From: Pyrus communis
Taxonomy: Eukaryota > Streptophyta > Magnoliopsida > Rosales > Rosaceae
Assembly (NCBI RefSeq): GCF_963583255.1
Contig: NC_084805.1
Span: forward strand, 9,664,827-9,728,826
Direction: 5' to 3'
Length of the DNA: 64,000 nt
Positions 18,226 to 58,446 of the stretch are shown piece after piece; the stretch's first letter is position 1, and every line of letters begins with the position of its first letter. Below the pieces are notes generated by a model. The model saw only the letters and a program-made list of their open reading frames with translations, ran no database searches and was not told where the DNA came from. The translations under genes and the position numbers were made by a program.

Positions 18226-20706
18226 ATCTTCTGATATATCCTGATGTCGGGAAGAAAGAAGGGGCAATCCCCATTCGAAACAAGCAAAGTCGACATGCAG
18301 CTACAAAAGGACAACATAAAGCTGCTCAAGGCAAATGTAATTTTACCTCTGACACAACTAGGCGATGCTAAAATATCAATGCCACCACAAGGCTTCATAC
18401 AACGCTTTCCAAAAGAAACAGAACCAAGCTTTCTTCCAACCAAGAAGACCGGAGAAGGCTTCAACCCAAACATCTACAAACTCATGTCAAAGGCTGGGTA
18501 CGATTTCACTTCCTTTTCAAATGTTGGAAAGAAGAATGTAAACACTGTTAACGACAAAGAAGGTGACCTCACTGAGACTCAAAAGAAGTTCAAGGAGCAT
18601 GGTTACGGAGTTGACATCACCAAAGCTGGACTTGGCTTCACACCAAATACACCGATGAAAATTTCAAGAAAAGCGAAAAATGCTAGTGCTTAACACATCA
18701 ACTTAAGCATTGAACAAGATTAAGAGGAGCCTAAGATCACCCATCAAACGTCAGTCTTCGATAGGCTGAATCATTCAAAACCTAGAATTTCGGCACTTGA
18801 TCGTATTGGTAGTCAAGATAGAACTTTCGTCTTCAAGCAGGTTAACTCGCCAACACCCCAAAGCTCTGTTTTCAAAAGGTTATCAAAACCTAAGAAACAA
18901 AGCAACACGGCTAGTTCTCCTCCACGACAGTCGGCCTTGGAAAGACTTGAAGAAACCAAGAAACCTTCAAGGATGAAGGTCTAACAAAAAAAGACGATGT
19001 TTGAAGACAAGCTCGACGGTCTAACAGAAAAGACGATGTTCGAAGCCTGATTCCTTCAAGGATGAAGCGCCAAGCAACCTTGGAAGTTGACATAAAAGGA
19101 CAACCGAAGGTAAAGAGGCGCACTATCATCCACACTGGCCAATCTTCACGCCAACAAGCCCAAGAGGATAGCATTGAAGAGAAGGTGCAAGAAGTTTTCC
19201 ACATCACAATCCAAGAAGATAAAGAAGACGAAATCCCCGAGGAAGAGGCCATTGATGCACCACCATAGCTCAAGGATAGGGGCCAAGCCACGGTTGATAA
19301 TCTTAGGGAGCTCAACTTAGGCACAAGCGAGGAATCAAAGCCTATCTTCATAAGGGCACTACTAAGTGCGGATGTGATCGAAGAGTACTACTAACTGCTA
19401 ACGGAGTACAAAGACCTTTTTGCTTGGACCTATAAAGAAATGGCCGACCTTGACCCTATCATCGTCGTGCACTATTTTGCAGTCAAGCTTGGAGCATTAT
19501 ACCAATGCTATTTTGAAGGAGTACTTCTAAGATGCCTAGGCGAGGAAGAAGCCAATCAAGCCATGGAAAAAGCACACTTAGGCGTATGCGGAGCCCATCA
19601 GTCTAGACCAAAACTACACTTCCAGCTTAAGAGAATGGGCTACTATTGGCTGAGCATGGTGAATGACTGCTTGTAATACACCAAAAGGTGCCAAGCCTGC
19701 CAATTCCACGCCAACTTCATACATCAACCGCCAAAACCATTAAACCCTATGGTTGCTTCATGGTCGTTTGATGCATAGGGATTAGACGTCGTAGGACCAA
19801 TCACACCAAAATCATCTGTAGGAGAAGCTTACATCCTAGTTGCAACAAATTACTTTTCCAAATGGGCTCGAGCCGTACCCCTAAAAGAAGTCAAGAAGGA
19901 AATTGTCGTCCATTTCATTAAATAGCATATCATCCATCGATATGGTGTGCCTTACTACATCACCACTGACAATAAAAATTAGTTCTCCAACCGATTCATG
20001 GACGGGCTCTGCGAGAAATATCAATTCAAGTAGCACAAGTCTTCCATGTATCATGCTTCGGCCAACGATCTCACGGAAGCATTCAACAAAATGTTGTGCA
20101 ACTTCCTAAATAAGGTAATCAGCCGAACAAAGAGAAACTGGCACGAAAGAATAAGCGAATCACTTTGGGTATATAGGATGACACATAAGACTCCTACCCA
20201 GGCTACACCTTATTCTCTCGTATATGGCGTGAAAGTTGTTTTGCTGCTCGAAAGTCAAATCCCCTCACTAAGGATAACTATACAAGAAGGCTTAACTGAA
20301 GAGGAAATGCAAAACTATGACTTCAAGAGTTAGAAGCACTCGATGAAAGAAGGCTTAAAGCTCAATAACATTTGGAATGCTACCAAGCATGGCTATCTAA
20401 GGCATTCAACAAGAAAGTCTATCCAAGGTCTTTCCAAACTGGTGAGTCTTAGTATTACAGAGGCCTATCATTACAACTCACAAGACAAAAAGCAAGTTCA
20501 CATCAAAATGGGATGGACCTTACGTAATACAAGGGGTTTACACCAACGACACCTACTTGATCATGGTGGAACATGGCTAAAAGATCGGCCCCATCAACGG
20601 TAGATTCTTGAAGCGTTACTACCCCAAAACCAAACAAGCAATGCTCATTGCCTGCATGAGCCTAAACTGCACACGGCACACAGCTCCTCGCCTGCATGAG
20701 CCTTAA
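18226..20706 (+). pseudogene. Tat-type pol lacking RT and RNase H, with integrase (element H)
   Basis: 18244-18693 is the linker that precedes RT in Tat polyproteins (GFNPNIYKLMSKAGYDF, then GLGFTPNTPMKIS). At about 19400-19495 the frame enters the very start of RT (DLFAWTYKEMADLDP, HYFAVKLGA). It then passes in frame, without RT palm or RNase H, into integrase: LLRCLGEEEANQAMEKAHLG, an H-H-C-C zinc region (CQACQFH near 19690), LDVVGPI (first Asp), TDNK (second Asp) and LTEAFNK (Glu). It ends near GRFLKRYYPKTK (about 20600). Scattered stops make it a pseudogene. The deletion junction is near 19494. Confidence 0.85.
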
Positions 20707-22732: not shown

Positions 22733-22737
22733 GTCTT

Positions 22738-25220
22738 TGATGCGTGAATTATACGCACACAAACTAAACCCTATTTGTGACAATTGTAGTAATGATGTAA
22801 GTAGGGATCATTCTAACCGGGGATTAACTAGGGATGCTAAACACTTGACTCAAATAAATAAAACTAACTTTTAAAACACTAAGACAAACCAAAAGACTCA
22901 AAACAAGTTCAAAAGACTCCAATACTTAAAAACATAAAATAAGACAAATCAAATGATTAAGACTTAACAAAATAGAGGGGGGAATTGTGGTTGGACGAGA
23001 TTAAATTAAACGGACAGATTATAATTTAAAACAGATAGTAAAGATGAATGTGATGAAAATATGGATGATGGAATAGCTAAGGGGTTCTTCTCCACACATG
23101 TTACACTTGCATACAAAATTGATTCTCAGTTGGTCTTTCGATAAGTTGTGAAACTCAATGCTCCAAGTTAATTAGGTCCGCTTAAATTAACTTTCAGATT
23201 TCCCTAAATTCATTGGATTGAATGGAATACGCATTACAACCAAATTATTCTTAATCAAAGTCCCTAACTATGGAATACGCATGATAGAGACATTCAACAA
23301 AGATCATTAAGTTCAATGAAAATTATAAGTGTTGACGAGGCACTCGTTACTATGGAATACGCATGAAACTTATGCCAAGAATTCGTTTAAAGCGATTGTT
23401 TATAAGCAACCTCCACTACTTGTGAATATAAGTTCATAACGATTAGGTGAAACTCACTTATATTCTAGCGTCATATTCATGCATGAAAATTAAGCTTGCA
23501 ATCTCAATGAACATACATAAATAAGTTATCAATCAAACAGTTAAACGAATTGAATCCACAACTTATGAAATTCCAACCAAAAGTAATCAATTCATATTGC
23601 AAATATAAACATAGTTTCGAATCACCCCCTAGCTAAAGGGGGTTTAGTTCCTCATAACCTTGAAATCAAAGAAACAACTAAACATTCCAACAACTCAAAC
23701 TTGAATTGTATGAACGTTTAGGCACTCTTATCTTCCATTCGTCATACGTACAAAACAAAGAGAATTAAATTATAACTTTGAAATCAAAGAAACACCCAAA
23801 CATTCCAACAACTCAAACTTGAATTGTATGAACGTTTAGGCACTCTTCTCTTCCTCTTCGTTGTGGCACAAGGTCTAAGGAGATGTTAAGGGCTTTAGGT
23901 GTATGTGGAATGGAGTAGGGAGTGGTTGGAGATGGAAGAGTGAAGAGAAAATATGCAGAAAATGAAATGGGACTCACGGCAATGGAATGGGTTTGTTGCT
24001 TGGTGTTTGTAACTGAAAATGTGTATGGAAGAGTGAATGAATTGTGGAAGAATGGATGCTTATTTATAGGTGAAATAGGGGAACATGGCAGCTAGGAGGG
24101 AATGTGGCTGCATGTGTGAATGATTAAAGGATGCATGTGGGTTGAAATGAAAGGGAAATGCATGTGCAAAGCTGGAAATGCATGTGAAGATGTTGGAAAT
24201 GGAATGAAACTCACGGCAATAGTGTAATGGTGCTGAAAATGCATGTTTGTGCATGTGATTTGAAGTGATTATTGTTTGGAAATGAATGTGAAGGCATGTG
24301 AAAGCTGGAAATGCATGTGAAGATGTTGGAAATGGAATGAAACTCACGGCAATAGTGTAATGGTGCATGTGTTGGCTGTTTTGTTTGTTGGTTAAAGCTT
24401 GTGTTTGCATGTGAATGTTGTTTGTGTGAAGTGTGTGTGAATGCATGTGGATTAAAGAGTGAATGCATGTGTTGAATGATTTCTTGGTGAGGGAATGCAT
24501 GTGCAAATGCATGTGGAATGTGGCTGAAAATGAAAGGAGGAGTGCAATGGAATGTGCACGGCAATAATGTGTGTTTGTGCATGTGGGTGAATGTGCATGT
24601 GTTTTAGGTTGTAATGTGTAGATAATTATGAGTATGATAAATGATAAGTGTATGATATGTTGAGTGGTAAGTGAATGATAAGATAAGTGATAAGTGAATG
24701 ATATGTTGAGTGATAAATGAATGATATGTTGAGTAATAAGATAAGTGGTTATTGATATGTAGATGAATGAATGATATGATAAGTAATAAATGAATGATAA
24801 GTGGTTATTGATATGTAGATGAATGAATGATATGATAAGTAATAAATGAATGATATGTGGTGATGATAAGATAAGTGTATGATATGATAAGTGGTGAATG
24901 AAGGAGTGGAATGTTGGAATGTTATGCACGACTAAGGATATAGGAAAGGTTTAAATATCCTAAAACTAAAGGGAACAAGGTTCCAACACTTTGGTCTTCA
25001 ATTAGGTTTTCAATTTCGTCCAACACTTTGGCTCCAAGCATAAGCTATCCATCCTTAGCCCAAAAGTGCTCCAAAAGTCTCCAAAATGCATCTTTTTGCT
25101 CCTTTAGCCCTTTCGGCCTACAAACACACGAAAATAGCTTAAAGTACTAAAATAACTAAAGAAACATAACGTAAATGCACGAGAACAAGCCATTTAAGTC
25201 GCATGAATATGCTCCTATCA
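22738..25220 (-). repeat. 3' LTR of element B
   Basis: 2483 bp from TGATGCGTGAATTATACGC to GCTCCTATCA, nearly identical to 34953-37424 (2472 bp). The small length gap falls mainly in the GATAAGTGA repeats. It contains the duplicated hairpins (about 23680-23842) and a TATTTATA box near 24059. Confidence 0.95.
24040..24905 (-). repeat. Low-complexity U3 repeats of LTR B
   Basis: The U3 is built from many TGCATGTG and GAATGCATGTG units (about 24070-24600), a near-duplicated 130-bp block (24170-24240 and 24300-24370), then GATAAGTGA and GAATGATATGTTGAGTGA units (24610-24900). The 289-residue open frame across it is a by-product of these repeats. Confidence 0.8.
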
Positions 25221-26924: not shown

Positions 26925-26938
26925 ACCCCCCCACACTT
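26925..26938 (-). other. Second, internal polypurine-like tract (element B)
   Basis: AAGTGTGGGGGGGT in element sense, preceded by CATTGAGGACAATGTTTGAT. It has the same core as the terminal tract but lies 1.7 kb inside. It is conserved in C and E. It may be a relic or an additional plus-strand primer. Confidence 0.55.
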
Positions 26939-27505
26939 AAATCAAACATTGTCCTCAATGTTTTAAGCATAGATTCACACAAAACATAAGTAAACACACA
27001 AAAAGCACTTAAACATACTAAACATGGCAAAATGTAATTAACAAAGAGAAGAGTTTAGGGACGCAAATCTGGTTATGGAGTGTAAATTCCATCTTCTCTT
27101 TGTTGATTGCAATGAGGCTTGATCTTGATGATTCCACAGGTTTACTCTCGAACTGGTTTCCGCCCATCATTGATTTTCCTTTGTGCTACTGGGCTGGAGG
27201 ATTCTTTTGGTCTTCCCCGAAGGTCTGAGCTTACCCTTTTGGTCTGTTTCTTTGTTCAATCTTTCCAATTCGTATTGAAAAGGGTTGGAGGATAACTCAG
27301 CCTATGTTTGTCTCCACATGCTTCAATGTATCATTTTCACTTGCCTTACTCGCTCCCCTTTGCAGAAGTGGTCCCTTCTCCGGAAGTGTATCAACCGTTG
27401 AAGATGACTACTCGAGAGCAACGCTAGGTAAGCAATCAGGAATAGATTCCAGGCAGTTGGCTCCAGAACGGAAGACTGACTCCAAGTGCCGGCTGATTGC
27501 TTGTT

Positions 27506-28006
27506 TTACTTTGCCATGCGAGTAAGAACAAGGACAAAGAAAAAGACAGGGAAAGAGCATGATATGAGATACTTTCGCTTTTGACCTTGATGATATGAGA
27601 TACCTTTGCTTTTGAAGAAGCGGTTGGTTGAATCAGCACATGTATTTGTTGTGCTGTTCCCTCCTCGGTCATCTGTACTCCAGACATCTGGTATCATCTT
27701 TGGGGAAGAAGAAAGAATTTAGTATTTCGAAAGGCTTTGCTGGGAGTGCATCCTCAGAGGTGAGGGAGAGTTGGGCATTTTCTTCAGGTTTGCCCTGCCA
27801 TAAAAGACGAAGGTCGACATATATAGAGATAATAGCAAGTGGTGGTACTTTTTACCTTTGTCGACAAACGTTTTGATCCCGCAACTATGGCTTTTTGAAA
27901 TAGTGGCGCCTCTTCGATTTTTGAATACGCCTCTTCGATTTCTGAGCAGGCGCCCCTTCGATTTCTGAGCGACACGTGGTAGTGCAGATGCGGCTCCTTT
28001 TGACAA
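27506..28006 (-). pseudogene. Broken copy of the 175-residue sense ORF (element B)
   Basis: The frame 28006-27719 (from QKSKGRLLRNRRGVFKNRR to SQQSLSKY) and frame 27697-27506 (MIPDVWST to VFFFVLVLTRMAK) match the intact 175-residue ORFs of C and E. A TCA to TAA change ends the first part and the reading differs after WST. The N-terminal half is very basic and the C-terminal tail hydrophobic. Because the frame is lost here, a protein role is doubtful. The region may matter as DNA or RNA, since its 5' half overlaps the promoter-like block of the antisense gene. Confidence 0.5.
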
Positions 28007-28340
28007 AGCTACACGCGTCTTCTGAAAAGCAGAGAAAGCGTCGCCGAACTTTGCGCTTGTCGGCTAAAGATGTGTAGTTGTGATGATGGCCTCCACGTGT
28101 TGTTTGAAAAGAAGAAATCTTTTGACAAAGTTGAACGCGCCTTCTGAAAAGCCGAGAAAGCGTCGCCTAAATTACGCCGAAAATTCCGGCTTTTTGAATT
28201 GGTGGACGCGTCGCCTTGGCTTTTTTATTGAGCTATCGATCACCACAACAAACACACACTGAAGATTTCCCATTCTTGAAAATCGACTCCGGCCCTTTGA
28301 AATTTAACTCCATCCCTTCTCTTTGAACACTTTTGAAAAA
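27898..28340 (+). promoter_or_regulatory. Promoter-like block of the antisense gene (element B)
   Basis: The block is GC-rich against the surrounding DNA. It has three CCTCTTCGATTTCTGA-type units (27903-27970), a G-box CACGTG at 27973-27978, two copies of a 48-bp module at 27998-28045 and 28120-28167 (TTTTGACAAAG, then ACGCG, CTTCTGAAAAGC, GAGAAAGCGTCGCC), and a second G-box at 28094-28099. TTGAC is a W-box core and CGCG is the CAMTA core. The layout is conserved in C and E. Promoter function is inferred. Confidence 0.55.
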
Positions 28341-29018
28341 ATGGCAAACTCATCGAACCTTAGCTTGGAATTGAGCCTTAGCAGTGATACGGGCGCGCCG
28401 CGTCAAGGTAACGTATGGCGCCCTTCTTTTTTATCTTCTAACGGTCTTCTTACAGGTGAAGACTCCGTGATGCAAGACGCCACAACAGCTACAATAGTAG
28501 CTAGGAACCTCCTCACACCAAAAGATAGTAGGCTGCTGTCAGGACGGTCCGATGAGTTGGCCGTTCAAGAGTATCTCGCACTTAGTGTTCAGTGTGCGAG
28601 CTCTGTGTCCAACATGGGCCAACGCCTGCTTGCCCGCTCCCGTCAGGTGGAATCATTGATGGCAGAGGTGGAAAGTCTCAAGCAGGAGATCCAGCAGCTG
28701 AAGTATGAGAATAGAAGTTTGCACGTGCTTGCAAACAACTATTCGACGGGCATGAAGAGGAAGCTTGATGAGTTGCAAGAGTCTGAAGGTCGGATTCACA
28801 GTGACCGTCAAAGGTTTTCGTCTTTCCTCCAGAGGCACCTTTTTCCTGGCTCATCCAGCGCTTGGCCAAGTATTGAGGCCTGGAATGCTCAATCTTCGAT
28901 GCCTCCCGCTCCGATGCCTTCTGTTCCTACGCCTTCCACTCCGATGCCTTCTATTCCTACGCCTTCCACTCCAAGAGTAAAGCCACGTAGTGGGGCCTCA
29001 AGCAAACAACCTTTGTGA
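28341..29018 (+). CDS. Antisense EAR/coiled-coil protein (element B), 225 residues
   Basis: The ORF is encoded opposite to gag-pol, between pol and the 3' LTR. I chose ATG 28341 (MANSSNL) over 28323 because only it is shared by C and E. Residues 6-13 (NLSLELSL) contain LxLxL, the EAR pattern that in plant proteins recruits TOPLESS-type co-repressors. Residues about 35-90 form a nearly invariant core (GEDSVMQDATTATIVA and SVQCASSVSNMG). Residues about 98-145 are heptad-like (VESLMAEVESLKQEIQQLKY). The tail is a Pro/Ser repeat (MPS.PTPSTP) of variable length. No known domain is recognised. Compared with C, 15 codons in a core of about 112 differ silently and 4 change the residue, which argues for a translated, selected protein. 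Confidence 0.8.
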   Translation: MANSSNLSLELSLSSDTGAPRQGNVWRPSFLSSNGLLTGEDSVMQDATTATIVARNLLTPKDSRLLSGRSDELAVQEYLALSVQCASSVSNMGQRLLARSRQVESLMAEVESLKQEIQQLKYENRSLHVLANNYSTGMKRKLDELQESEGRIHSDRQRFSSFLQRHLFPGSSSAWPSIEAWNAQSSMPPAPMPSVPTPSTPMPSIPTPSTPRVKPRSGASSKQPL

Positions 29019-29174
29019 AGCACCATCTTTCTTTGTTTAGCAGTGCCTATCAATAAATCAAACATTTTCTCAATGTTACAATCATAGACTCACACAATTA
29101 ATAAACAAACAAACAATAACAACTAAACAACCTAACAAGGCAGAAACGAAATAGCAACAAAGAAAGATGGTGCT
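29019..29174. repeat. 19-bp inverted repeat between convergent genes (element B)
   Basis: AGCACCATCTTTCTTTGTT at 29019-29037 is perfectly inverted at 29156-29174, with a 118-bp spacer. The spacer is a diverged copy of the AATCAAACATTGTCCTCAATG region found at 26937-27056. It lies directly after the antisense gene stop and before the pol stop, so both convergent transcripts would contain it. Confidence 0.75.
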
Positions 29175-29258
29175 TTCTAAGTCTTCCTTTGTTGAATGCA
29201 TGGGTTGCCTCCCAAGTAGCGCTTTGTTTTACGTCTTGCAGCCGGACGGTACCTCCGT

Positions 29259-32200
29259 TTAAGCTTGACTAGATTCCACGGCATGGAGGGGTACCTCCTC
29301 CACGACATGCTCCTCAAACATCTCGTAATAGGGCTTCAATCGATGCCCATTCACTTTGAATTCTTGCTGCGTCCTTGAACTTTTGATTTGCACTGCACCA
29401 TGAGGGAAAACATTAGTAACAACAAACGGGCCAATCCATTTAGAACGCAACTTACCAGGAAACAAACGTAGGCGAGAGTTGAAAAGTAACACTTTCTGCC
29501 CAACTGTGAAGGTCTTGGTTCGAATCATTTTATCATGGAATGCTTTGGTCTTGGCTTTGTACATCCGGGCATTCTCATAGGCTTCATTCCGAATCTCCTC
29601 AAGTTCATTCAATTGGAGCTTCCTATGAACTCCCGCTGCATCTATGTCCATGTTGAAAGTCTTCACGGCCCAATGTGCCTTGTGCTCTAACTCTACGGGC
29701 AAATGACATGGCTTACCATAGACGAGCCGAAAAGGTGACATCCCAATGGGTGTTTTGTATGCCGTACGATATGCCCACAGTGCATCATCTAAACGTAAGC
29801 TCCAATCCCTCCTTGTTGGTCCAACGGTCTTCTCCAAAATTTGTTTGATTTCTCGGTTAGACACCTCGGCTTGGCCATTTGTTTGAGGATGGTAAGGTGT
29901 GGAGACCTTATGGTTGACATGGTACTTTCTTAGCAACGCCTCAATGGTCCGATTGCAAAAGTGAGACCCTCCATCACTTATGATTACTCTCGGCATTCCA
30001 AACCTAGCAAAAATGTTAGTTTTCACGAAATCTGCAACCACCTTAGAATCGTTAGTACGGGTGGCTTTTGCTTCCACCCATTTAGAAACATAATCAACGG
30101 CTAGCAAGATATAAGTGAAACCATAAGATGGAGGGAAAGGGCCCATGAAATCAATGCCCCAAACATCAAAAATTTCAACATTAAAGACAGGGGTTTGCGG
30201 CATTTGGTCCTTGGTACCTATGTTACCCATTCGTTGGCAACGATCACAAGACATACAAAAGGTTCTAGCATCCCTAAATATAGTCGGCCAATAAAAACCA
30301 CACTCTGGAACCTTGAGGGCAGTGCGTTGTGTGCCAAAATGACCACCACATGCATATGTGTGACAAAAGCTTAGAATTGAGTGAAATTCAGAATTATGCA
30401 CACATCTACGTACAATTTGATCTGAGCAATACTTCCACAAATAAGGGTCATCCCAAACATAGAAACGTGCATCATTTTTAAGCTTATCACGTTGGTGCTT
30501 GTTTAGTTCATTTGGAATTTGTTTAGCCACCAAGTAATTCACTAAATCTGCATACCATGGTTCACTTACCTTAATGGATAGCAGCTGCTCATCAGGAAAA
30601 GTTTCAGGGATAGGTACGGCATGTTCATGCTCCTCGTGGATCATTCGGCTTAAATGGTCAGCCACTACATTCTCGCTTCCTTTCGTATCCCGGATTTCAA
30701 TATCAAATTCTTGAAGAAGAAGAATCCAACGGATAAGCCTCGGCTTTGCTTCCTTTTTCGTGATCAAGTACCTCAAAGCTGCATGATCAGAATAAACGAT
30801 TACTTTAGTACCAATTAAATATGAACGGAATTTATCTAAAGCAAAAACCACAGCTAGAAGTTCTTTTTCCGTCGTGGAGTAGTTCAATTGGGCATCATTG
30901 AGAGTCCGAGAGGCATAGTATATGACATGCGGCCGCTTGTCTCTTCTTTGTCCTAGAACAGCTCCTAATGCATAGTCGGATGCATCGCACATGAGCTCGA
31001 ACGGAAGGCTCCAATCTGGAGGTACAATAATGGGGGCTGAGACTAGCTTCTCCTTGAGTTGGTTAAATGCCGAATTACACTCTTCATCAAACTTGAATGG
31101 CACATCTTTTTGAAGCAATCGGCAAAGAGGGTTGGACATCTTGGAGAAGTCCTTGATAAAACGCCTATAGAACCCTGCATGGCCAAGAAACGAACGTACC
31201 TCTCTAACCGAAGTAGGAGAGGGTAAGTGACGTACAAGGTCTATTTTCGATTTATCTACTTCAATTCCTTTTTCTGAAACAATATGTCCTAAAACTATAC
31301 CTTGTTTCACCATAAAGTGACATTTCTCCCAATTCAAGACAAGGTTAGTTTCAACACATCGTTTCAAAATTAAGGTTAGATTATCCAAGCAATTATCAAA
31401 TGAACTCCCAAACACACTGAAATCATCCATGAAAACCTCAATGATCTTTTCAACAAAATCGGAAAATATACTTACCATACACCTTTGGAAAGTGGCCGGT
31501 GCGTTGCATAAGCCAAATGACATGCGACGATAAGCAAATGTTCCAAAGGGACATGTGAATGTGGTCTTCTCTTGATCATCCGGGGCTATCACAATTTGGT
31601 TATATCCAGAGTATCCATCAAGAAAACAGTAAAAGGCATGACCGGCTAACCTTTCGAGCATCTGGTCGATGAATGGCAAAGGAAAGTGATCTTTCCTAGT
31701 CATGGCATTTAGCTTCCGGTAATCGATACATACTCGCCATCCAGTCTGAATGCGTGTAGGTACGAGCTCATTCTCATCATTCTTGATAACAGTTACTCCG
31801 GACTTCTTGGGAACGACTTGAACTGGAGAGACCCAACGGCTATCGGAGATAGGGTAGATCACTCCGCAATCCAAAAGCTTGATTATTTCCTTCTTCACCA
31901 CTTCCATCATCGGAGGGTTGAGACGGCGTTGAGCCTCTCGGGATGGCTTAGTCCCCTCCTCAAGAAGTATACGGTGCATGCATGTGGTAGGGCTTATTCC
32001 TTTAATGTCGGCCAAAGTCCACCCTATGGCCGTTTTGTGTTCTCGCAGCACCCTCACAAGCTTCTCCTCCTCCATTGCCGTGAGACTTGATGAAATGATG
32101 ACGGGCAATGTTTCGCCTTCTCCCAAAAACACATACTTCAAATGGTCCGGCAACGGCTTAAGTTCAAGCGATGGTGCCTGAACAACAGAAGGTAGCATCT

Positions 32201-34823
32201 TAGTGGAAACTGAATTTGAAAGTGAGAGTGGAACCTTACCATATTGTTATGGCAATGACTCAAGGGCTGCCACAACCTCAATTATTTCTTCACTAGAACC
32301 CATGGCAAAGAATTCCTCCTCCTTGCCGTGGCCTTGCATTGGCCCAAATCCTTCATTTTTGCAGTCTATGGCCTTAGTGATTGTTGTTTCCAGGGCGTCC
32401 TCGTTCAATTCTTCAAGGTATACCTGCGCCAAAGAATCGATAACATCAATGGAAAAACAAGAATGGTCATCAACGGGATATCTCATAGTTTCAGAAATAT
32501 TAAAATCAATCACTTCCCCATCGAATTCCATTGTTAAGGTGCCTTTGTATACATCAATCTTCGTTCGGGCCGTCTTCATGAATGGCCTACCAAGGAGAAT
32601 CGGCAAAGATGTAGAATGGGCTGAATCCTCCATGTCTAGGACGTAGAAATCAGCCGGAAAAATTAAATGGTTCACCTGCACAAGCACATCTTCCAAAACT
32701 CCTTTTGGATACGCGTTAGAACGATCGGCCAATTGTATAATTACACCATCTTGTTTTAATTCACCCAAATTGATAGATGCATAAATAGAATAAGGCATCA
32801 CATTTATAGATGCACCTAAATCAAGCATGGCATGTTCAAAACGATTATGTCCAATCACACAAGGAATCGTGAAACTACCGGGGTCTTTGCACTTGGTAGG
32901 CAGTTTACGTTGCAAAACAGCGGACACATTCTCGCTTACCTTCACTACCTCTTTGTTTGCCCTTCTTCTCTTTGTATTGCATAGGTCCTTGAGGAATTTA
33001 GCATACTTTGGAACCTGTTTGATTGCATCGAGAAGCGGTATGTTCACTTGCACCTTCCGGAACGTTTCAAGAATGTCCTTCTCGCTTTCTTCCTTTTTTT
33101 CTTGCATGAACCTGCGAGGAAAAGGTACATTGGGCAGATTAGGACGTGAAGTACATGAATTTGAACTTAAATTACCTGATTTGGCCGAGTTAGGGTGATT
33201 GGGGGCCTGCGGCATTGGGTTTTTCACCCTTACCGTGGGTGAGCTAGACACTTCCTCAGGTTGTGTCGTCTCTTCATCTACTTTCTGGGCAGATTTGGGA
33301 TTGTTTGGCTCGGTCCCAACTTCTTTTCCACCCCTTAGGGTGATGGCCTTGGCGGATTTGAATCCTCCCTTTGGATTGACTGTGGTTGAGCTAGGAAGCT
33401 TTCCTTGCTCTCTAATCTGTCCAAGGAACTCAGAAATCTACCCTATTTGTTTCTTCATATCCATCATCTCCTTCTCGTTATTTGCTATCCGGTTGTTTTG
33501 ATTTTGCAACCCCTGCGAAATAGAGGTTAGTAATTGCATAGCTTGATCACTTTCCAAGGACGTACCTGAATGAGATGATGCCGAAGGTTGTTGGGGTTGT
33601 TGGGGTGCATACGGCTTGGAATAAAAACCAGGGGGGTTTGGCCTAAATCCTCCTTGTTGGGCAGCTTGTTGTGGCTCCCTCCATTTGAAGTTTGGATGGT
33701 CCCTCCATCCGACATTGTAAGTGTTCGAGTATGGGTTGTTTTGATTTTGTCCTTGGAAACCAATTGCATTGGCAGATTCCCACCCACCATTCTCGATTAG
33801 TTGAGGGCACTTGTCGGATGGATGCCCTTGAATTGAGCACACGCCACAAACTTGGTGTTCTTGTGCTTTTGGACCAATCACAACCTGAGAAACAAGAGAA
33901 TTAAGATTAGCAAGTTGTGATTGAATTTCAGAAATAGCACTCACCTCATTTACACTTTGTTGCCGTGGGGCTTCCCTTTGGCCCACTCCTTCATATTGTT
34001 GAGCGTTGAGCGCTCGGTTGGCTATGAGAATCTTGGCATCCCTTGGTGTTTTGTCCACCAATGCTCCTCCCGCTGATGCATCAAGCATTTGACGTTCGAT
34101 AGGAAGGAGGCCCTCATAGAAATATTGAAGGAGAAGTTCCTCCTTCATTTGATGTTGAGGACATGAAGCTACAAGGCCCTTGAAGCGCTCATAATAAGCC
34201 GGGAATGTCTCACCATGATTCTGTTGAATACCACTAATTTTCTTCCGTAAGAGAATCACTCTCGAAGTAGGGAAGAATTTCTCCAAGAAAGCACGCTTCA
34301 TACTCTCCCACGAAGTCACAGTTCCCGGGGCTAGTTCGTAGAGCCAATCTTTGGCCTTGTCCATAAGTGAAAATGGAAAGGCCTTCATCTTTAATATACT
34401 CCCATCCACATTGACGGGGGTCATGCTCGAACAAACCACCTCGAACTCCTTCAAGTGTTTGTTGGGGTCTTCCATAGACAAACCATGGAACTTCGGAATA
34501 TGGTGTAACAAACTGGATTTGAGTTCAAATTCCTCAGTCTTCCCCTCTGCAGCCGTGGGGTATTGGATACAAAGAGGCAATGCATTATCCAAACCCGAGG
34601 CCGAAAGCTCCTTGATGGTTCTATTATCTGCTGCCATGGCTTGTTTTTCTTCAAAAATCTGATCTGTGGGCTTTTCTTCTACACCTACTTCGTCTTCTTC
34701 ACGCCCAGGTTGTGGTGGAGGTTGTGGTGGCTCTTGTTGACTCCTCGTTCTCCTCAAAGTGCGTTCAAAATCACCGTCAAAGTCGGAGATGTTCTCTATA
34801 ATAGGCCGAGAGCTACGAGTCAT
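29259..34823 (-). pseudogene. Athila gag-pol polyprotein with two stops (element B)
   Basis: One frame of 1854 codons runs from MTRSSRPIIE at 34823 to 29259. Gag has a capsid core (residues 100-275) and a CX2CX4HX4C knuckle (C326, C329, H334, C339). The protease core DLGASINVMP is near 32822. RT spans about 31946-31316 with FMDD near 31433. RNase H is near 31000-30640 with its D-E-D-D residues present. Integrase has an HHCC zinc finger, Asp-Asp-Glu with 35 residues between the last two, and a GPF motif near its end. Stops interrupt it at 33437-33435 (CAG to TAG) and 32246-32244 (CAA to TAA). Copy A has Gln at both places. It supplies particle, protease, reverse transcription and integration when intact. 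Confidence 0.95.
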
Positions 34824-34929
34824 ACACAGTACCTAAAAAACAAGGAAACAAACAAACTAAGAATCTAAAATAAGAATGCACGAAAAACAAAATATAAAAA
34901 TAAAGACAAAGGATTAGCAAAGTTGCTAA

Positions 34930-34947
34930 TCCCCGGCAACGGCGCCA
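34930..34947 (-). other. Primer binding site, tRNA-Asp type (element B)
   Basis: TGGCGCCGTTGCCGGGGA in element sense, 5 nt inside the 5' LTR, a perfect match to the expected tRNA-Asp complement. Confidence 0.92.
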
Positions 34948-34952
34948 AAATT

Positions 34953-37424
34953 TGATGCGTGAATTATACGCACACAAACTAAACCCTATTTGTGACAATT
35001 GTAGTAATGATGTAAGTAGGGATCGTTCTAACCGGGGATTAACTAGGGATGCTAAACACTTGACTCAAATAAATAAAACTAACTTTTAAAACACTAAGAC
35101 AAACTAAAAGACTCAAAACAAGTTCAAAAGACTCCAATACTTAAAAACATAAAATAAGACAAATCAAATGATTAAGACTTAACAAAATAGAGGGGGGAAT
35201 TATGGTTGGACGAGATTAAATTAAACGGACAGATTATAATTTAAAACAGATAGTAAAGATGAATGTGATGAAAATATGGATGATGGAATAGCTAAGGGGT
35301 TCTTCTCCACACATGTTACACTTGCATACAAAATTGATTCTCAGTTGGTCTTTCGATAAGTTGTGAAACTCAATGCTCCAAGTTAATTAGGTCCGCTTAA
35401 ATTAACTTTCAGATTTCCCTAAATTCATTGGATTGAATGGAATACGCATTACAACCAAATTATTCTTAATCAAAGTCCCTAACTATGGAATACGCATGAT
35501 AGAGACATTCAACAAAGATCATTAAGTTCAATGAAAATTATAAGTGTTGACGAGGCACTCGTTACTATGGAATACGCATGAAACTTATGCCAAGAATTCG
35601 TTTAAAGCGATTGTTTATAAGCAACCTCGACTACTTGTGAATATAAGTTCATAACGATTAGGTGAAACTCACTTATATTCTAGCGTCATATTCATGCATG
35701 AAAATTAAGCTTGCAATCTCAATGAACATACATAAATAAGTTATCAATCAAACAGTTAAACGAATTGAATCCACAACTTATGAAATTCCAACCAAAAGTA
35801 ATCAATTCATATTGCAAATATAAACATAGTTTCGAATCACCCCCTAGCTAAAGGGGGTTTAGTTCCTCATAACCTTGAAATCAAAGAAACAACTAAACAT
35901 TCCAACAACTCAAACTTGAATTGTATGAACGTTTAGGCACTCTTATCTTCCATTCGTCATACGTACAAAACAAAGAGAATTAAATTATAACTTTGAAATC
36001 AAAGAAACACCCAAACATTCCAACAACTCAAACTTGAATTGTATGAACGTTTAGGCACTCTTCTCTTCCTCTTCGTTGTGGCACAAGGTCTAAGGAGATG
36101 TTAAGGGCTTTAGGTGTATGTGGAATGGAGTAGGGAGTGGTTGGAGATGGAAGAGTGAAGAGAAAATATGCAGAAAATGAAGTGGGACTCACGGCAATGG
36201 AATGGGTTTGTTGCTTGGTGTTTGTAACTGAAAATGTGTATGGAAGAGTGAATGAATTGTGGAAGAATGGATGCTTATTTATAGGTGAAATGGGGGAACA
36301 TGGCAGCTAGGAGGGAATGTGGCTGCATGTTTGAATGATTAAAGGATGCATGTGGGTTGAAATGAAAGGGAAATGCATGTGCAAAGCTGGAAATGCATGT
36401 GAAGATGTTGGAAATGGAATGAAACTCACGACAATAGTGTAATGGTGCTGAAAATGCATGTTTGTGCGTGTGATTTGAAGTGATTATTGTTTGGAAATGA
36501 ATGTGAAGGCATGTGAAAGCTGGAAATGCATGTTAAGATGTTGGAAATGGAATGAAACTCACGGCAATAGTGTAATGGTGCATGTGTTGGCTGTTTTGTT
36601 TGTTGGTTAAAGCTTGTGTTTGCATGTGAATGTTGTTTGTGTGAAGTGTGTGTGAATGCATGTGGATTAAAGAGTGAATGCATGTGTTGAATGATTTCTT
36701 GGTGAGGGAATGCATGTGCAAATGCTTGTGGAATGTGGCTGAAAATGAAAGGAGGAGTGCAATGGAATGTGCACGGCAATAATGTGTGTTTGTGCATGTG
36801 GATGAATGTGCATGTGTTTTAGGTTGTAATGTGTAGATAATTATGAGTATGATAAATGATAAGTGTATGATATGTTGAGTGATATGTTGAGTGGTAAGTG
36901 AATGATATGTTGAGTGATAAATGAATGATATGTTGAGTGATAAGATAAGTGGTTATTGATATGTAGATGAATGAATGATATGATAAGTAATAAATGAATG
37001 ATAAGTGGTTATTGATATGTAGATGAATGAATGATATGATAAGTAATAAATGAATGATATGTGGTGATGATAAGATAAGTGTATGATATGATAAGTGGTG
37101 AATGAAGGAGTGGAATGTTGGAATGTTATGCACGACTAAGGATATAGGAAAGGTTTAAATATCCTAAAACTAAAGGGAACAAGGTTCCAACACTTTGGTC
37201 TTCAATTAGGTTTTCAATTTCGTCCAACACTTTGGCTCCAAGCATAAGCTATCCATCCTTAGCCCAAAAGTGCTCCAAAAGTCTCCAAAATGCATCTTTT
37301 TGCTCCTTTAGCCCTTTCGGCCTACAAACACACGAAAATAGCTTAAAGTACTAAAATAACTAAAGAAACATAACGTAAATGCACGAGAACAAGCCATTTA
37401 AGTCGCATGAATATGCTCCTATCA
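34953..37424 (-). repeat. 5' LTR of element B
   Basis: 2472 bp, TG to CA, almost identical to 22738-25220. Hairpins lie at 35892-35937 and 36010-36055. The outer stem of the second has a U-G pair in place of U-A, so pairing is kept. U3 contains the TGCATGTG and GATAAGTGA repeats. Confidence 0.95.
36276..36283 (-). promoter_or_regulatory. LTR TATA box (element B)
   Basis: TATAAATA on the minus strand, about 220 nt upstream of the first 46-nt hairpin. It is the likely promoter of the B genomic RNA. Confidence 0.65.
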
Positions 37425-38689: not shown

Positions 38690-40735
38690 TGATGCGTGAT
38701 TTATACGCACACAAATTAAACCCTCTTTTTATCAATTGTAGTATATGTATAAGTAGGGATCGTTCTGGACCGGGGATTAGGAGGGATTGTTAATCACTTG
38801 GATTTGACTAAAAAACGTAAAATAAAGTTTAAAACACTATACTAGACTCAAAGAATGCAAAACTAAACTTTAAATCACTAAGACAAACCAAAGACTCAAA
38901 ATGCTTTAAAACATAAACTAAATTGAACAATAAGGAAAAAGGGGGGAAGAGTTTTGATTTGACGAAAATTGAAATAACAAAACAAGTTAATAAACTAAGC
39001 AGAATGTAAATGTGAATATGGATGATGGAATAAATGGAATGAAGGCTAGCTAAGGGGTTCTTCTCCACACATGTTATACTTGCATACAAGATTGATTCTC
39101 AGTTGGTCTTTCGATAAATTATGAAACTCAATGCTCCAAGTTAATTAGGTCCGCTTAAATTAACTTTCAGATTTCCCTAAATTCATTGGATTGAATGGAA
39201 TACGCATTACAACCAAATTATTCTTAATCAAAGTCCCTAACTATGGAATACGCATGATAGAGACATTCAACAAAGATCATTAAGTTCAATGAAAATTAGA
39301 AGTGTTGATGAGGCATTCGTTACTATGGAATACGCATGAAACTTATGCCAAGAATTCGTTTAACGCGATTGTTTATAAGCAACCTCCACTACTTGTGAAT
39401 ATAAGTTCATAACGATTAGATGAAACTCACTTATATTCTAGCGTCATATTCATGCATGAAAATTAAGCTTGCAATCTCAATGAACATACATAAATAAGTT
39501 ATCAATCAAACAGTTAAATGAATTGAATCCACAACTTATGAAATTCCAACCAAAAGTAATCAATTCATATTGCAAATATAAACATAGTTTCGAATCACCC
39601 CCTAGCTAAAGGGGGATTAGTTCCTCATTACTTTGAAATCAAAGAAACACCTAAACATTCCAACAACTCAAACTTGAATTGTATGAACGTTTAGGCACTC
39701 TTCTCTTCCATTCCTCATACGTACAAAACAAAGAGAATTGAATTTAAACTTTGAAATCAAAGAAACACCTAAACATTCCAACAACTCAAACTTGAATTGT
39801 ATGAACGTTTAGGCCCTCTTATCTTCCTCGTTGTTGTAGCACAAGGTCTAAGGTGAGGTTTGGGGAATTATGGAAATGGATGAGGAATGGTGGAAATGGA
39901 AAGATGGTTTTTGGATTATAAGGGGAGAGATGGGAAGCTCACGGCTAGGGAAGGGAGAATGTGTTTGTAATGTGTTGTGTATGAAATGAGATGTCAATTG
40001 AATGAATGAATGCAAGGGTATTTATAGGAGTAGTGGAGGGAACATATGGCTATGTCATTTGTAGGTGAAGTAGGTGGATGTTGTAGGTGAAGTAGGTGGA
40101 TGTTGTAGGTGAAGTGGATGTTGTAGGTGAAGTAGGTGGATGTTGTAGGTGAAGTAGGTGGATGTTGTAGGTGAAGTGGGTGGATGTTGTAGGTGAAGTA
40201 GGTGGATGTTGTAGGTGAAGTGGATGTTGTAGGTGAAGTAGGTGGATGTTATGTTAAGTGATAAGTGATAAGTGATATGATATGTGGTTATGATATGATA
40301 AGTGGTTAAGTGGTGATGATAAGTGATAAGTGATTAAGTGATATGATATGTGGTGATGATAAGTGATAAGTGCATGTGGGTTAACTAATGAAGGAAATGC
40401 ATGTGCAATGACAATGTGTTAGAATGGATGTGTGTTATGCATGGCATGATTGGGATTAGGAAAGGTTTAAATGTCCTAAAACTAAAGAGAACAAGGTTCC
40501 AACACTTTGGCTCCAATTAGGTCTTCAATTTCGTCCAACACTTTGGCTTCAAGCATAAGCTATCCGTCCTTAGCCCAAAAGTGCTCCAAAAGTCTCCAAA
40601 ATGCATCTTTTTGCTCCTTTAGCCCTTTGGACCTACAAACACACGAAAATAGCTTAAAGTACTAAAATAACTAAAGAAACATAACGTAAATGTACGAGAA
40701 CAAGCCATTTAAGTCGCATAAATATGCTCCTATCA
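38690..40735 (-). repeat. 3' LTR of element C
   Basis: 2046 bp from TGATGCGTGATTTATACGC to GCTCCTATCA. Subtracting the 207 bp lost from the other copy gives the same length (1839 bp), so no net indel difference separates them. Only a few substitutions are visible. The insertion is recent. Confidence 0.93.
40061..40250 (-). repeat. Minisatellite in U3 of LTR C
   Basis: Nine units (seven of 22 bp, two of 18 bp) starting GTAGGTGAAG and ending GTGGATGTT. The same nine-unit array is at 50399-50588. E has five units (58303-58412) and D five plus one degenerate (from 48753). GATAAGTGAT repeats follow. Confidence 0.92.
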
Positions 40736-42926: not shown

Positions 42927-43454
42927 TTACTTTGCCATGCAAGTAAGAACAAGGACAAAGAAAAAGACAGGGAAAGAGCATGATATGAGATATTTTTGCT
43001 TTTGACCTTGATGATATGAGATACCTTTGCTTTGAAGAAGCGGTGAATGAATCAGCACATGCTTCAATCCGCCGTTTCCTCCTGGGTCATATGTACTCCA
43101 GGCATCTGGTATCATCTTTGGGGAAGAAGAAAGAATTGAGTATTTCGAAAGGCTTTGCTGGGAGTGCGCCCTCAGAGGTGAGAGAGAGTTGGGCATTTTC
43201 TTTAGGTTTGCCCTGCCATAAAAGACGAAGGTTGACATATATAGAGATAATATCAAGTGGTGGTACTTTTTACCCTTGTCGACAAACGTTTTGATCTCGC
43301 AAATCCGGCTTTTTGAAATAGTGGCGCCTCTTCGATCTTTGAATACGCCTCTTCGATTTCTGAGCAGGCGCCCCTTCGATTTCTGAACGACGCCCCTTCG
43401 CTTTCTGAACGACACGTGGTAGTGCAGATGCGGCTCCTTTTGACAAAGCTGCAC
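42927..43454 (-). CDS. 175-residue sense ORF upstream of the antisense gene (element C)
   Basis: The ORF starts MQLCQKEPHL at 43454 and ends FVLVLTCMAK. The first 55 residues are strongly basic (RKRRGVVQKSKGRLLRNRR), and the last 20 include a hydrophobic run (PVFFFVLVLT) that could be a membrane tail. No family is recognised. It is read divergently from the antisense gene at 43785, and its 5' part lies inside the promoter-like block, which explains the repeated R/K pattern as translated tandem repeat. E has a near-identical ORF and B a broken one. It may be chance coding. Confidence 0.35.
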   Translation of the reverse strand: MQLCQKEPHLHYHVSFRKRRGVVQKSKGRLLRNRRGVFKDRRGATISKSRICEIKTFVDKGKKYHHLILSLYMSTFVFYGRANLKKMPNSLSPLRAHSQQSLSKYSILSSSPKMIPDAWSTYDPGGNGGLKHVLIHSPLLQSKGISYHQGQKQKYLISCSFPVFFFVLVLTCMAK

Positions 43455-43784
43455 ACGTCTTCTGAAAAGCAGAGAAAGCGTCGCCGAACTTTGCGCTTTG
43501 TCGGCTAAAGATGTGTAGTTGCGATGATGGCCTCCACGTGTTTTCAGCTTTGTCAGAAATCTTTTGACAAAGTTGAACGCGTCTTCTGAAAAGCAGAGAA
43601 CGCGTCGCCTAAATTACGCCGGAAATTCCGGCTTTTCGAATTGGTGGACGCGTCGCCTTGGCTTCTTATAGAGCTATCGATCACCACAACAAACACACTC
43701 TGAAGAATTCCCATTCTTGAAAATCGACTCCGGCCCTTTGAGAATTAACTCCATCCACCCCATCTCTTTGAACACTTTTGAAAA
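43318..43784 (+). promoter_or_regulatory. Promoter-like block of the antisense gene (element C)
   Basis: Same layout as B: four CTTCGATTTCTGA-type units (43325-43410), a G-box in GACACGTGG (about 43411), two 48-bp modules at 43438-43485 and 43562-43609 with TTGAC and ACGCG cores, a second CACGTG near 43537, and CTTATAGAGC near 43665 as a possible TATA box about 115 nt before the start codon. Confidence 0.55.
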
Positions 43785-44465
43785 ATGGCAAACCCATCGA
43801 ACCTTAGCTTAGAATTGAGTCTCAGCAGTGATACGGCCGCGCCGCGTCAAGGTAACGTATGGCGCCCTTCTTTCTTATCTTCTAACGGTCCTCTTTCAGG
43901 TGAAGACTCTGTGATGCAGGACGCCACAACAGCTACAATAGTAGCTAGGAACCTCCTTACTCCAAAAGATAGTAGGCTGCTGTCAGGACGGTCTGATGAG
44001 TTGGCCGTTCAAGAATCCCTCGCACTTAGTGTTCAGTGTGCGAGTTCTGTGTCCAACATGGGCCAACGCCTGCTTGCCCGCTCCCGTCAGGTGGAATCTT
44101 TGATGGCAGAGGTGGAAAGTCTCAAGCAGGAGATCAAACTGCTTAAGTACGAGAATAGAAGTTTGCACGTGCTTGCCAACAACTATTCGACGGGTATGAA
44201 GAGGAAGCTTGATGAGCTACAAGAATCCAATGGTCGGATGCAAAGTGACCGTCAAACTGACCGTCAAAGGCTTGCGGCTTACTTCCAGAGGCACATTTTT
44301 CCGGGCTCATCCAGCGTTTGGCCAAGTATTGAGGCCTCTTCTTTGATGCCTCCCGCTCCGATACCTTCCGCCCCGATGCCTTCCGCTCCGATGCCTTCCG
44401 CATCTATGCCTCCTGCTTCTAGAGTTTTGCCCAGTAGTGGGGCTTCAAGTAAACGCCCTTTGTGA
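43785..44465 (+). CDS. Antisense EAR/coiled-coil protein (element C), 226 residues
   Basis: It starts MANPSNLSLELSLSSD at 43785, with the same LxLxL motif, invariant GEDSVMQDATTATIVA core and coiled coil (VESLMAEVESLKQEIKLLKY) as B and E. It has a four-residue insertion from a duplicated TDRQ and a tail of APMPSAPMPS-type repeats. It is one of only two protein frames that the element keeps apart from the 175-residue ORF. It is convergent with the Gag-linker ORF, from which a 38-nt T run separates it. The product may act on transcription through co-repressor binding; this is inference from the motif only. Confidence 0.8.
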   Translation: MANPSNLSLELSLSSDTAAPRQGNVWRPSFLSSNGPLSGEDSVMQDATTATIVARNLLTPKDSRLLSGRSDELAVQESLALSVQCASSVSNMGQRLLARSRQVESLMAEVESLKQEIKLLKYENRSLHVLANNYSTGMKRKLDELQESNGRMQSDRQTDRQRLAAYFQRHIFPGSSSVWPSIEASSLMPPAPIPSAPMPSAPMPSASMPPASRVLPSSGASSKRPL

Positions 44466-44479
44466 AGCTCCATCATTCT

Positions 44480-44524
<45 letters not shown>

Positions 44525-45868
44525 TAAATAAAATAAAACGGCATGGAATTGGTCCTTGAATGGAAGGTGATACTTGAAGTGAACCGGCATTGGTTCAAAT
44601 TCTAAAGTGGGTGCCTGGATCATTAACCACATGTTAGTATAAAAGAAAATTGAAATTCGGGGAGGCGGCTTACCTGTGTGCTCCAAAATGAACTCCAGAA
44701 TAAACACCCCTTCGAAAGTTATGACTTGTCCCGTGTCATAAAATCCAACTTCCTTGGGAATTGTGGTTTCAAATATGTCCTCTTTGATGCCTTCTACATC
44801 TTCTCCAGCCACTACCTTCTCTTGAATCATTCTTCTTGGTGTACAAAGTCCTTTGAAGAATTCAACACCATCTAAAACTTGCTGTGTTGCACCAAGAATT
44901 TGAATAGCATTTTGCACCTTTGGGAAGGCTTCCACGATGTCCTTTTTACTCTCTTCTTGGTTGGGAATCAAAAACCTGCTAGGAAAAGGGACATTGGGTG
45001 GAATAACATTAGAATAACATGGAATTGGGACGTCCTTACTGGTGGTGGGTGGTTTAGAGGGCTTAGGGGGCTGCGGCAAGGGTTGTTCTACCCTTGCCGT
45101 GTGCATGTCTTCTTCCTCCTCCTCAATTAGCAGCTCTTCATCCACTTCTAGGCTATGTTTGGACATTTTTAGGTCAGCTCCAACCTCCATAGTACTTCCC
45201 AAAGTGATAGCATTATGGATTTCAAAATCTTCCTTCGAGTTTTCAATAGTTGAGTTGGAGAGTTCACTTTGCTCTTGAATTTGTTTCATGAACTCCATAA
45301 TCTGCCCAAATTGCTCGTCCAATTTACCCAACTCCTTGGCTTGATTTTGTGACCCCTGCGCCAAAGAGGTTAGTAATTGAAAATTTTTATCATTATCCAT
45401 GGACATACTTGAACTTGATTGGAATTGTTGTGGGGGAGGTTGTGGTGGCTGCATAGGTGTTGTATTGAACTCCTCATATGGTTGCCAATATGCTTCTTGT
45501 TGAGCCTCCTTGGCTTGATTTTGTGACCCCTGCGCCAAAGAATTTATTTCATTAAGAATTTGATTATAATCTATTGGCGAACTTGAATTTAATTGAGCAT
45601 ATTGCATATGAAGTTGTGGTGGCTGCATAGGTCTTGAATAGAACTCCTCATATGGTTGCCAATATGCTTCACGCTGAACTTGTTGATCTTCCCACCATAT
45701 AGAGTTTGAATGATCCCTCCAATCTCTTTGTGGACATTGATTGGCTTGAAATCCTTGCCTATATGAAGCACCAAATGTAGGGACACTCTGCATTGTGGTC
45801 CTTTCGGCATACGGCGACAATTTAGAAGTAAGATTTGCCAATTGAGCTTGAATGCTAGCAAAATCCAT
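44279..45868 (-). CDS. Gag-linker-derived ORF of non-autonomous element C, 529 residues
   Basis: It starts MDFASIQAQLANL at 45868. It corresponds to the region of Athila Gag-Pol after the zinc knuckle (DWRDHSNSIWWE, and LTSLAQGSQNQAKELGKLDEQFGQIMEF) through the linker before protease (VPFPSRFLIPNQEESKKDI), and then the linker before RT (QAPTLEFEPMPVHFKY). Capsid, knuckle, protease, RT and integrase are absent. Copies of a YWQPYEEFYSRPMQPPQ unit are internally repeated. In E the frame stops after FKDQFHAV. Here the stop TGA has become TTA, so the frame reads through a poly-A tract (poly-Lys) into the complement of the antisense gene. The original end is about 44542. Confidence 0.7.
44484..44521. 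repeat. 38-nt T homopolymer (element C)
   Basis: An uninterrupted T run between the stop codons of the convergent antisense gene and Gag-linker ORF. E has an A-rich tract at the same place (61060-61120). It may be a slipped polyadenylation-type sequence. Confidence 0.9.
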
Positions 45869-46024: not shown

Positions 46025-46042
46025 TCCCCGGTAACGGCGCCA
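46025..46042 (-). other. Primer binding site, tRNA-Asp type (element C)
   Basis: TGGCGCCGTTACCGGGGA in element sense, one mismatch to the site of A, B and E. The adjacent LTR terminus is also mutated (TTATGCG for TGATGCG). Confidence 0.85.
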
Positions 46043-46047
46043 AAATT

Positions 46048-47439: not shown

Positions 47440-47477
<38 letters not shown>

Positions 47478-58412: not shown

Positions 58413-58446
58413 AAATGACATAGCCATATGTTCCCTCCACTACTCC

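Follow-up and report, generated by a model that had tools for sequence, protein, structure and literature searches.

Why would LTR retrotransposons that have lost their enzymes keep a gene on the strand opposite to gag-pol? Antisense genes in plant retrotransposons have been noted for years, and their role is still unsettled. The question is raised by a stretch of 64,000 nucleotides of the Pyrus communis genome (NC_084805.1, positions 9,664,827 to 9,728,826; hereafter, the window), in which a sequence-only reading had pointed to three Athila-type elements (i.e., B, C, and E), each with an intact antisense open reading frame (aORF). It is testable in pear and apple, where the copies of this ORF are many.

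Arrangement of the elements in the window

Element B carries its aORF (225 amino acids; aa) at positions 28341 to 29018 of the plus strand, with a leucine zipper at residues 103 to 138. Its other genes lie on the minus strand (i.e., a pol ORF at 29259 to 32198 with Pfam matches to RVT_1, RNase H, and integrase; a linker/protease ORF at 32247 to 33251, in which we assign the protease by position and motif; and a gag ORF at 33438 to 34823 with a Pfam match to Retrotrans_gag). The 3' LTR (22736 to 25220) and the 5' LTR (34951 to 37424) of B, also of minus-strand polarity, are 98.9% identical and have approximate ends; a primer-binding-site motif is located at 34930 to 34947 (minus strand). The aORF and pol stand tail to tail, with 240 bases separating their ends. 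A search for a sense env-like ORF in the interval from pol to the 3' LTR of B was negative, the longest minus-strand ORF there having 95 aa (ORFs of at least 50 aa were listed). A 19-base inverted repeat (29018 to 29036 and 29157 to 29175) spans the gap from the aORF stop to pol.

According to the ORF list and pairwise comparison, homologous aORFs are present in C (43785 to 44465, plus strand; 226 aa) and E (61149 to 61805, minus strand; 218 aa). All three are open, run opposite to gag-pol, and are placed between pol and the 3' LTR; the ORF list thus confirms the intact frames described by the sequence-only reading in length, position, and strand. Element C has a 3' LTR at 38690 to 40735 (minus strand; ends approximate) and a 5' LTR at 46046 to 51073 (minus strand) that is split by a nested insertion at approximately 47091 to 50271, parts of which match other LTR-related stretches in the window. 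Element E has a 5' LTR at 57774 to 59807 (plus strand; ends approximate) and is cut by the window end at 64000, so that its 3' LTR lies outside. Arrays of a 22-bp unit occur within the LTRs of C and E (40059 to 40250, 50397 to 50588, and 58295 to 58414). The polarity of C and E was set by their primer-binding-site motifs (46025 to 46042, minus strand, with one mismatch, and 59813 to 59830, plus strand, respectively) and by their gag-remnant ORFs. The latter are a 529-aa sense ORF in C (44279 to 45868, minus strand), which holds a gag-linker remnant and the start of pol, and a 379-aa sense ORF in E (59906 to 61045, plus strand), a remnant of the same kind; both are without a Pfam domain. The motif adjoins the 5' LTRs of B, C, E, and a further element, A (four matches versus 0.02 expected). 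Elements A and B are 99.1% identical over 1 to 2323 and 31175 to 33497, respectively, and 95.6% identical over the adjoining 5' part and LTR (2317 to 4950 and 33586 to 36211), a step that is a possible sign of recombination or conversion.

The loss of capsid, protease, RT, and integrase from C and E, which had been claimed alongside their retention of the aORF, was confirmed by tblastn with the pol, gag, and linker/protease proteins of B, none of these four parts being found in either element. In the window, the pol protein of B matched only B, A, and one stretch at 19515 to 20228. From the gag of B, only residues 297 to 444, behind the capsid domain, found matches in C and E (28 to 37% identity), and from its linker/protease ORF only residues 3 to 134, which by our reading end ahead of the protease motif. 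The stretch at 19515 to 20228 has 31% identity to the integrase region of B and belongs to another element.

Selection on the antisense ORF

We compared the three window ORFs with simulations in which the observed number of substitutions was placed at random, with a spectrum taken from the flanks (2,000 runs per pair; indels not counted). The simulated frame stayed open in 6.6% (B-C), 9.2% (B-E), and 9.5% (C-E) of the runs. The amino acid changes seen number 32, 28, and 31 for these pairs, respectively, versus simulated minima of 32, 27, and 29 and means of 45.6, 40.3, and 42.6. Changes at codon positions 1/2/3 are distributed as 19/14/39 (B-C), 18/11/33 (B-E), and 19/11/37 (C-E), and the dN/dS ratios (NG86; first 180 codon columns) are 0.21, 0.13, and 0.21. 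Between families, the core of the ORF gave dN/dS ratios of 0.11 to 0.24 when B, C, or E was compared with the older copies L085 to L088 (12 pairs; dS of 0.32 to 2.5, with values above 1 poorly measured), and 0.17 to 0.26 among L085 to L088, except for 0.50 between L086 and L087. The core amino acid identity of B and L086 is 58%. Together, the substitution simulation and the dN/dS ratios within and between families rule out a chance ORF, and the aORF is almost certainly a selected protein-coding gene. The antisense gene proposed for autonomous and pol-less elements is therefore real by the measure of protein-level selection.

L086 and L087 are two open copies of an older group resembling P0089, a cluster of database relatives described below, and 35 of the 47 best-matching pear rows of this group carry stops. 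In one other family, from which we fetched 16 copies picked for their listed stops, 15 share a stop at codon 169 that leaves the zipper open, and the remaining copy has an early stop instead. We had considered the amplification of dead genes for pear copies sharing stops and dropped it, since the shared stop takes off the tail only in 15/16. The selected part of the protein is residues 1 to approximately 166; one family can do without the proline-rich tail.

Pol-less elements that hold the aORF are of two kinds. In addition to the kind represented by C and E, copy L088 (G000:C11:17256782-17261282) has one continuous 908-aa ORF that covers gag and the linker/protease part; most of its RT and integrase is missing, and its antisense ORF is open (207 residues from TTG, 205 from ATG). 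The antisense placement was established from gag in L088 and from LTR polarity in L087. Other open rows with a length similar to that of L088 suggest a family.

The host genome searched was a 487-Mb assembly of 29 contigs. The aORF protein of B gave 4,304 first-look candidates, which are not a copy count, and 153 reported matches; 10 of the listed rows have an internal stop. Since the protein-match list is ordered best first by protein, we sampled copies by 900 bases of upstream DNA. This search gave 3,061 (B) and 2,949 (C) first-look candidates, of which 40 each were scored, and we read the 30 loci nearest to the upstream DNA of B and the 30 nearest to that of C, B and C themselves included. 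A copy was called open if it had an ATG and at least 195 aa, a definition that includes two copies with altered tails and excludes one that starts with TTG. The aORF region was present in 60/60 copies (30/30 in each sample) and open in 49/60 (22/30 in the B sample and 27/30 in the C sample). The end of pol adjoins the aORF in 27/30 copies of the B sample (20 open, 7 not); the rest are one copy with a pol-less junction (open) and two with neither (one open). In the C sample, 25/30 copies have the pol-less junction, all of them open, and five have neither (two open, three not). Many C-type copies are 99 to 100% alike upstream, and the openness of the C sample thus partly reflects youth. A cluster at 21.52 to 22.37 Mb of G000:C4, which gathers 13 of the top 40 matches to the upstream DNA of C within 0.85 Mb, 99 to 100% alike, looks like a recent regional burst of the pol-less element, perhaps at a centromere.

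For codon analyses of the genomic copies, we used 49 distinct open ORFs out of 57 chosen (8 of the 57 found by protein). Mean core dN divided by mean core dS was 0.46 in pairs with a dS of at most 0.02 and 0.17 to 0.23 in more distant pairs; such a fall with distance commonly indicates that individual copies lose the gene while the lineages that multiply stay constrained. A single omega over all branches was 0.438 (IQ-TREE). The ten pairs among the pol-less copies C, E, L040, L054, and L033 have dN/dS ratios of 0.27 to 0.38 over the whole ORF and 0.19 to 0.29 in the core, while the other pairs compared spread more widely, one young autonomous pair reaching 0.92. Judged by these ratios, purifying selection is similar in strength among autonomous and among pol-less copies. 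Because the amino acids are kept also among elements without enzymes, the use of the aORF can be separated from that of gag-pol.

The aORF is not better kept than pol. Both regions could be scored in 26 of 29 copies, the other three lacking one of them. In these 26, the aORF carries six stops and five frameshifts in 17,454 nucleotides, and the end of pol two stops and one frameshift in 12,428 nucleotides (i.e., more lesions per base in the aORF). The sequence-only reading had named random stops in most copies, at the rate of flanking noncoding DNA, as evidence against a gene. That picture does not fit the young copies, most of which are open; it has some hold on the older rows, most of which carry stops, and in the 26 young copies the aORF is no cleaner than the end of pol. 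In a window-by-window comparison of nine loci, three (L033, L028, and L054) proved to be mosaics composed of stretches closest to different elements, with switches within or near the ORF. These mosaics show that autonomous and pol-less elements exchange sequence, as would be expected if they are packaged together. Intact aORFs in pol-less elements may thus be borrowed or renewed from outside.

A zipper protein and its putative transcription signals

The search for relatives of the aORF protein found 1,382, and the organisms named among the best 120 of these are all Malus or Pyrus. One cluster of 224-aa relatives (i.e., P0089) comprises 2,492 sequences and another 1,030. In a second search with a 110-aa piece, the entries naming an organism were all Malus (among the 120 listed of 300 matches; full-length apple proteins were outside the length range). 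Nineteen of the 24 listed "ena" entries are on contigs of 651 to 1,849 bases, a length that would suit short mRNAs but that genomic contigs can have as well. Plasmid and viral collections yielded no relative. No Pfam family reached its cut-off among the matches shown for the aORF proteins, and generic coiled coils appear there. A sequence profile had seven matches among solved structures, mostly coiled coils (best E value, 0.17), and the best Foldseek match had an E value of 4.9 and pointed to no functional family.

AlphaFold2, given a 100-sequence alignment, modeled one helix at residues 72 to 166, with pLDDT block means above 90 for residues 91 to 160; the mean pLDDT was 65.6, confidence being low outside the middle of the helix. 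The alignment consists of 97 database proteins and the proteins of B, C, and E (23 of 123 sequences were left out, mainly by length). Its d positions are occupied by L106 (in 100 of the 100 sequences), L113 (98), L120 (95), L127 (99), and Y134 (100), and its a positions by V103 (98), V110 (99), I/V117 (100), N124 (100), A131 (96), and M138 (97). A parallel leucine zipper has leucines at d over at least four heptads, hydrophobic residues at a, and an asparagine at one a position, and an asparagine buried at such a position sets parallel two-stranded zippers. The alignment shows this pattern, the core asparagine N124 being unchanged in every sequence. By these residues, the protein has as its ordered part a leucine zipper of five heptads with an asparagine buried in its core, and it very likely dimerizes. 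Membership in the bZIP class was considered as well. The bZIP signature is a basic region, N-x7-R/K-x9-L, joined to the zipper; N91-x7-R99 is present here, but the spacing rules out bZIP membership, with E at position 109 and zipper leucines from 106, and no bZIP match was obtained in Pfam up to an E value of 1 for the three window proteins.

The ORF is accompanied by promoter-like and terminal signals. A TATA-like core lies approximately 120 bases ahead of the ATG in B (TTTTTTATT; 28221 to 28229, plus strand), C (TTCTTATA; 43663 to 43670), and E (TATAGAG; 61924 to 61930, minus strand), where it would belong to a putative aORF promoter. In 57 of the 60 sampled copies, a fixed order is found within 140 bases before the ATG, namely GCCTTGGC, followed by TTCTTATA (30 copies), TTTTTTATT (26), or TTTCTTATT (1), followed by GAGCTATCGATC. 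Upstream of the aORF of B are two CACGTG boxes (27973 to 27978 and 28094 to 28099, plus strand) and a pair of 55-bp repeats (27997 to 28173, plus strand; copies at 27997 to 28051 and 28119 to 28173), the latter also present in C and E. CACGTG occurs within 500 bases in 60/60 copies (7 with one box, 53 with two) versus 6.6% of random window stretches. Past the stop of B lies an AATAAA (29052 to 29057, plus strand), and this signal occurs at most 150 bases past the stop in 47 of 50 ORFs of at least 195 aa, versus 11.9% of random window stretches. These promoter and poly(A) counts come from related copies and thus show maintenance, not independent origins. The combination of TATA-like core, CACGTG boxes, and AATAAA suggests a separate transcription unit, and we consider it likely that the aORF has its own antisense promoter.

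Two further repeats were seen around the gene. A direct repeat of approximately 115 bp (77% identity) brackets the aORF cassette of B (26938 to 27052 and 29054 to 29167, plus strand) and is a possible trace of cassette uptake. Repeats of 22 to 23 bp containing CTTCGATTTCTGA lie approximately 400 bases upstream of all three ORFs (27905 to 27970, 43325 to 43413, and 62183 to 62271) and could be binding sites.

Related elements and candidate roles

The primer-binding-site motif beside the 5' LTRs of A, B, C, and E is one that we take to be of the Athila type (tRNA-Asp). A second, archaeal-type RNase H, which marks the Tat clade, was not found, Pfam giving one region (residues 371 to 498), although a very divergent copy could escape such a search. 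The Athila-type backbone proposed earlier is supported to the extent of this primer-binding site and the single RNase H region. The extra 3' ORF of classic Athila elements is sense and env-like, and a sense env-like ORF is not known to be universal in the lineage. The pear elements are thus like Athila in their primer-binding site and in having an extra gene past pol, and unlike classic Athila in the antisense orientation of this gene and in yielding no sense ORF of at least 100 aa.

In its placement on the opposite strand between pol and the 3' LTR, and in its presence in most copies of the family (here, all 60 sampled by upstream DNA), the aORF corresponds to the plant antisense class aORF-3R. 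Antisense ORFs in this position are reported from Grande (gene23), RIRE2, Retand, and PvRetro13 and have been suggested to act in regulation; gene23 of Grande is reported to have its own promoter and to encode a nuclear protein (PMC7264820). The accessible literature that we compared does not describe a zipper protein like that of pear for these elements. In Retand, 97% of the clusters have the domain TRP28 (PF04195; PMC11963269). TRP28 was absent among the matches up to an E value of 1 for the three window proteins and from the 25 most-matched of 121 families obtained with 100 sequences (up to an E value of 10); the pear protein is thus unlike that of Retand, and the claim that it differs from the antisense proteins of Tat/Grande-type elements was borne out in this respect. 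A broad survey recognizes reverse 3' ORFs as a class but sets a lower limit of 250 codons (PMC6317226), which leaves out ORFs of 218 to 226 codons, and the word "antisense" is absent from the accessible text of a pear element survey (PMC4668562). In the open-access literature (most subscription papers being outside this scope), we found no published description that combines a zipper aORF, an Athila backbone, and retention in pol-less forms. Antisense ORFs in plant LTR retrotransposons are therefore already known, while the zipper protein, its backbone, and its pol-less retention appear undescribed in the open-access literature; the earlier suggestion of novelty stands within that literature and goes no further.

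On balance, we think it probable that the aORF serves an Athila-type LTR family of apple and pear as an accessory gene that has its own promoter and encodes a dimeric, probably nuclear zipper regulator. In the proposed mechanism, the aORF would be transcribed from its own TATA/CACGTG promoter and end at its own poly(A) signal, and its protein would dimerize in parallel through the zipper. The dimer would regulate the element, probably from within the nucleus, at the level of either LTR transcription or the fate of genomic RNA, and could possibly pair with host zipper factors. Action as a nuclear regulator, taken as a claim of its own and argued by analogy, is tentative, and we would place it slightly below an even chance. 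Pol-less elements would borrow gag-pol from autonomous ones and keep the aORF. There are two possible reasons for this: the gene may chiefly benefit the copy that expresses it, or it may be renewed by recombination with autonomous copies.

The analogy is with HBZ of HTLV-1, an antisense zipper protein with four or five leucine heptads (PMC2647524). Both are antisense genes in the 3' part of a retroelement with leucine heptads, a likeness of analogy and not of established sequence relationship: HBZ has an arginine-rich region ahead of its zipper and belongs to another host kingdom. We regard it as unlikely that the aORF is an independent plant counterpart of HBZ, i.e., that its antisense zipper protein pairs with host zipper factors at CACGTG boxes, thereby reprogramming transcription of both the element and the host, and that it is the only well-conserved protein gene retained by stripped-down elements. 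If so, the parasites of the retrotransposon would carry its regulator but none of its enzymes.

A role in RNA export or packaging, in which a Rev-like or CERV-like helper would act on element RNA and be useful to any carrier copy, pol-less ones included, has a small chance of being correct. In Caenorhabditis elegans, export of the genomic RNA of the element Cer1 requires CERV, a nuclear accessory protein that may contain a leucine zipper (PMC10309623). The aORF product shares with CERV its source in an LTR retrotransposon, a presumed accessory role, and possibly the zipper; retention in pol-less forms would also make sense if the protein served the RNA of the copy that encodes it. However, CERV is spliced from exons in frame with gag and has globular domains, the antisense orientation of the pear gene makes its mRNA distinct from the genomic RNA, and no RNA-binding domain is found among the Pfam matches shown.

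Alternatively, the segment may be kept for a cis signal (i.e., a promoter, encapsidation, or second-strand priming), with the ORF hitchhiking. The divergence of the DNA upstream of the aORF is 7.0% (B-C), 5.6% (B-E), and 7.3% (C-E), versus 72/666, 62/654, and 67/645 sites, respectively, in the ORF (9.5 to 10.8%), and the ORF is thus not the best-conserved DNA of the segment. In 150-base windows, the upstream identity of B, C, and E is 84 to 99%, and they are identical across 100 columns from 26513. A patch at 27305 to 27705 (plus strand), parts of which are common to the older copies L085, L086, and L088, may be a cis signal; with the ORF core, it makes up the DNA similarity of B to L085 and L086 near the gene. 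There are also polypurine-tract-like sequences (CCCCCACACTTA) at 25225 and 26928. Nevertheless, the dN/dS ratios within and between families indicate selection on the protein as well, and the family once suspected of a dead aORF has kept the zipper open in all but one of the copies fetched. We regard a cis signal as the whole explanation as improbable.

The similarity of the upstream DNA of B, C, and E would also be in keeping with a function of the antisense transcript itself, forming double-stranded RNA with the genomic RNA and feeding small-RNA control, as has been proposed for antisense ORFs generally (PMC7264820). An RNA function does not protect amino acids, and between families most of the DNA around the aORF is unalignable, bar the upstream patch, while the codons are kept at the low ratios given above; we therefore consider this explanation highly improbable. 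Least credible of all is the idea that the elements captured a host gene and now carry it along as a passenger. The bracketing repeat of B may trace an insertion or template switch, but the gene is present in several element families of one genome and in apple, stays under selection, and resembles no family among the Pfam matches shown.

An accessory gene of the kind that we favor would explain gene models of apple and pear that are named "hypothetical protein" or, unsupported here, "S ribonuclease." Pear relatives of the aORF protein are labeled S ribonuclease or S2-RNase by a source database, and we found no support for these labels. A further point of contact is HODOR, a high-copy repeat and LTR element of apple and pear (PMC6901071, PMC13334179; also PMC8558331 and PMC11197308). 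As a high-copy LTR element of the same hosts, it resembles the elements described here in a comparison made by published description (its sequence record is KX869746), and the P0089 cluster, with its 2,492 members, may belong to a HODOR-like element.
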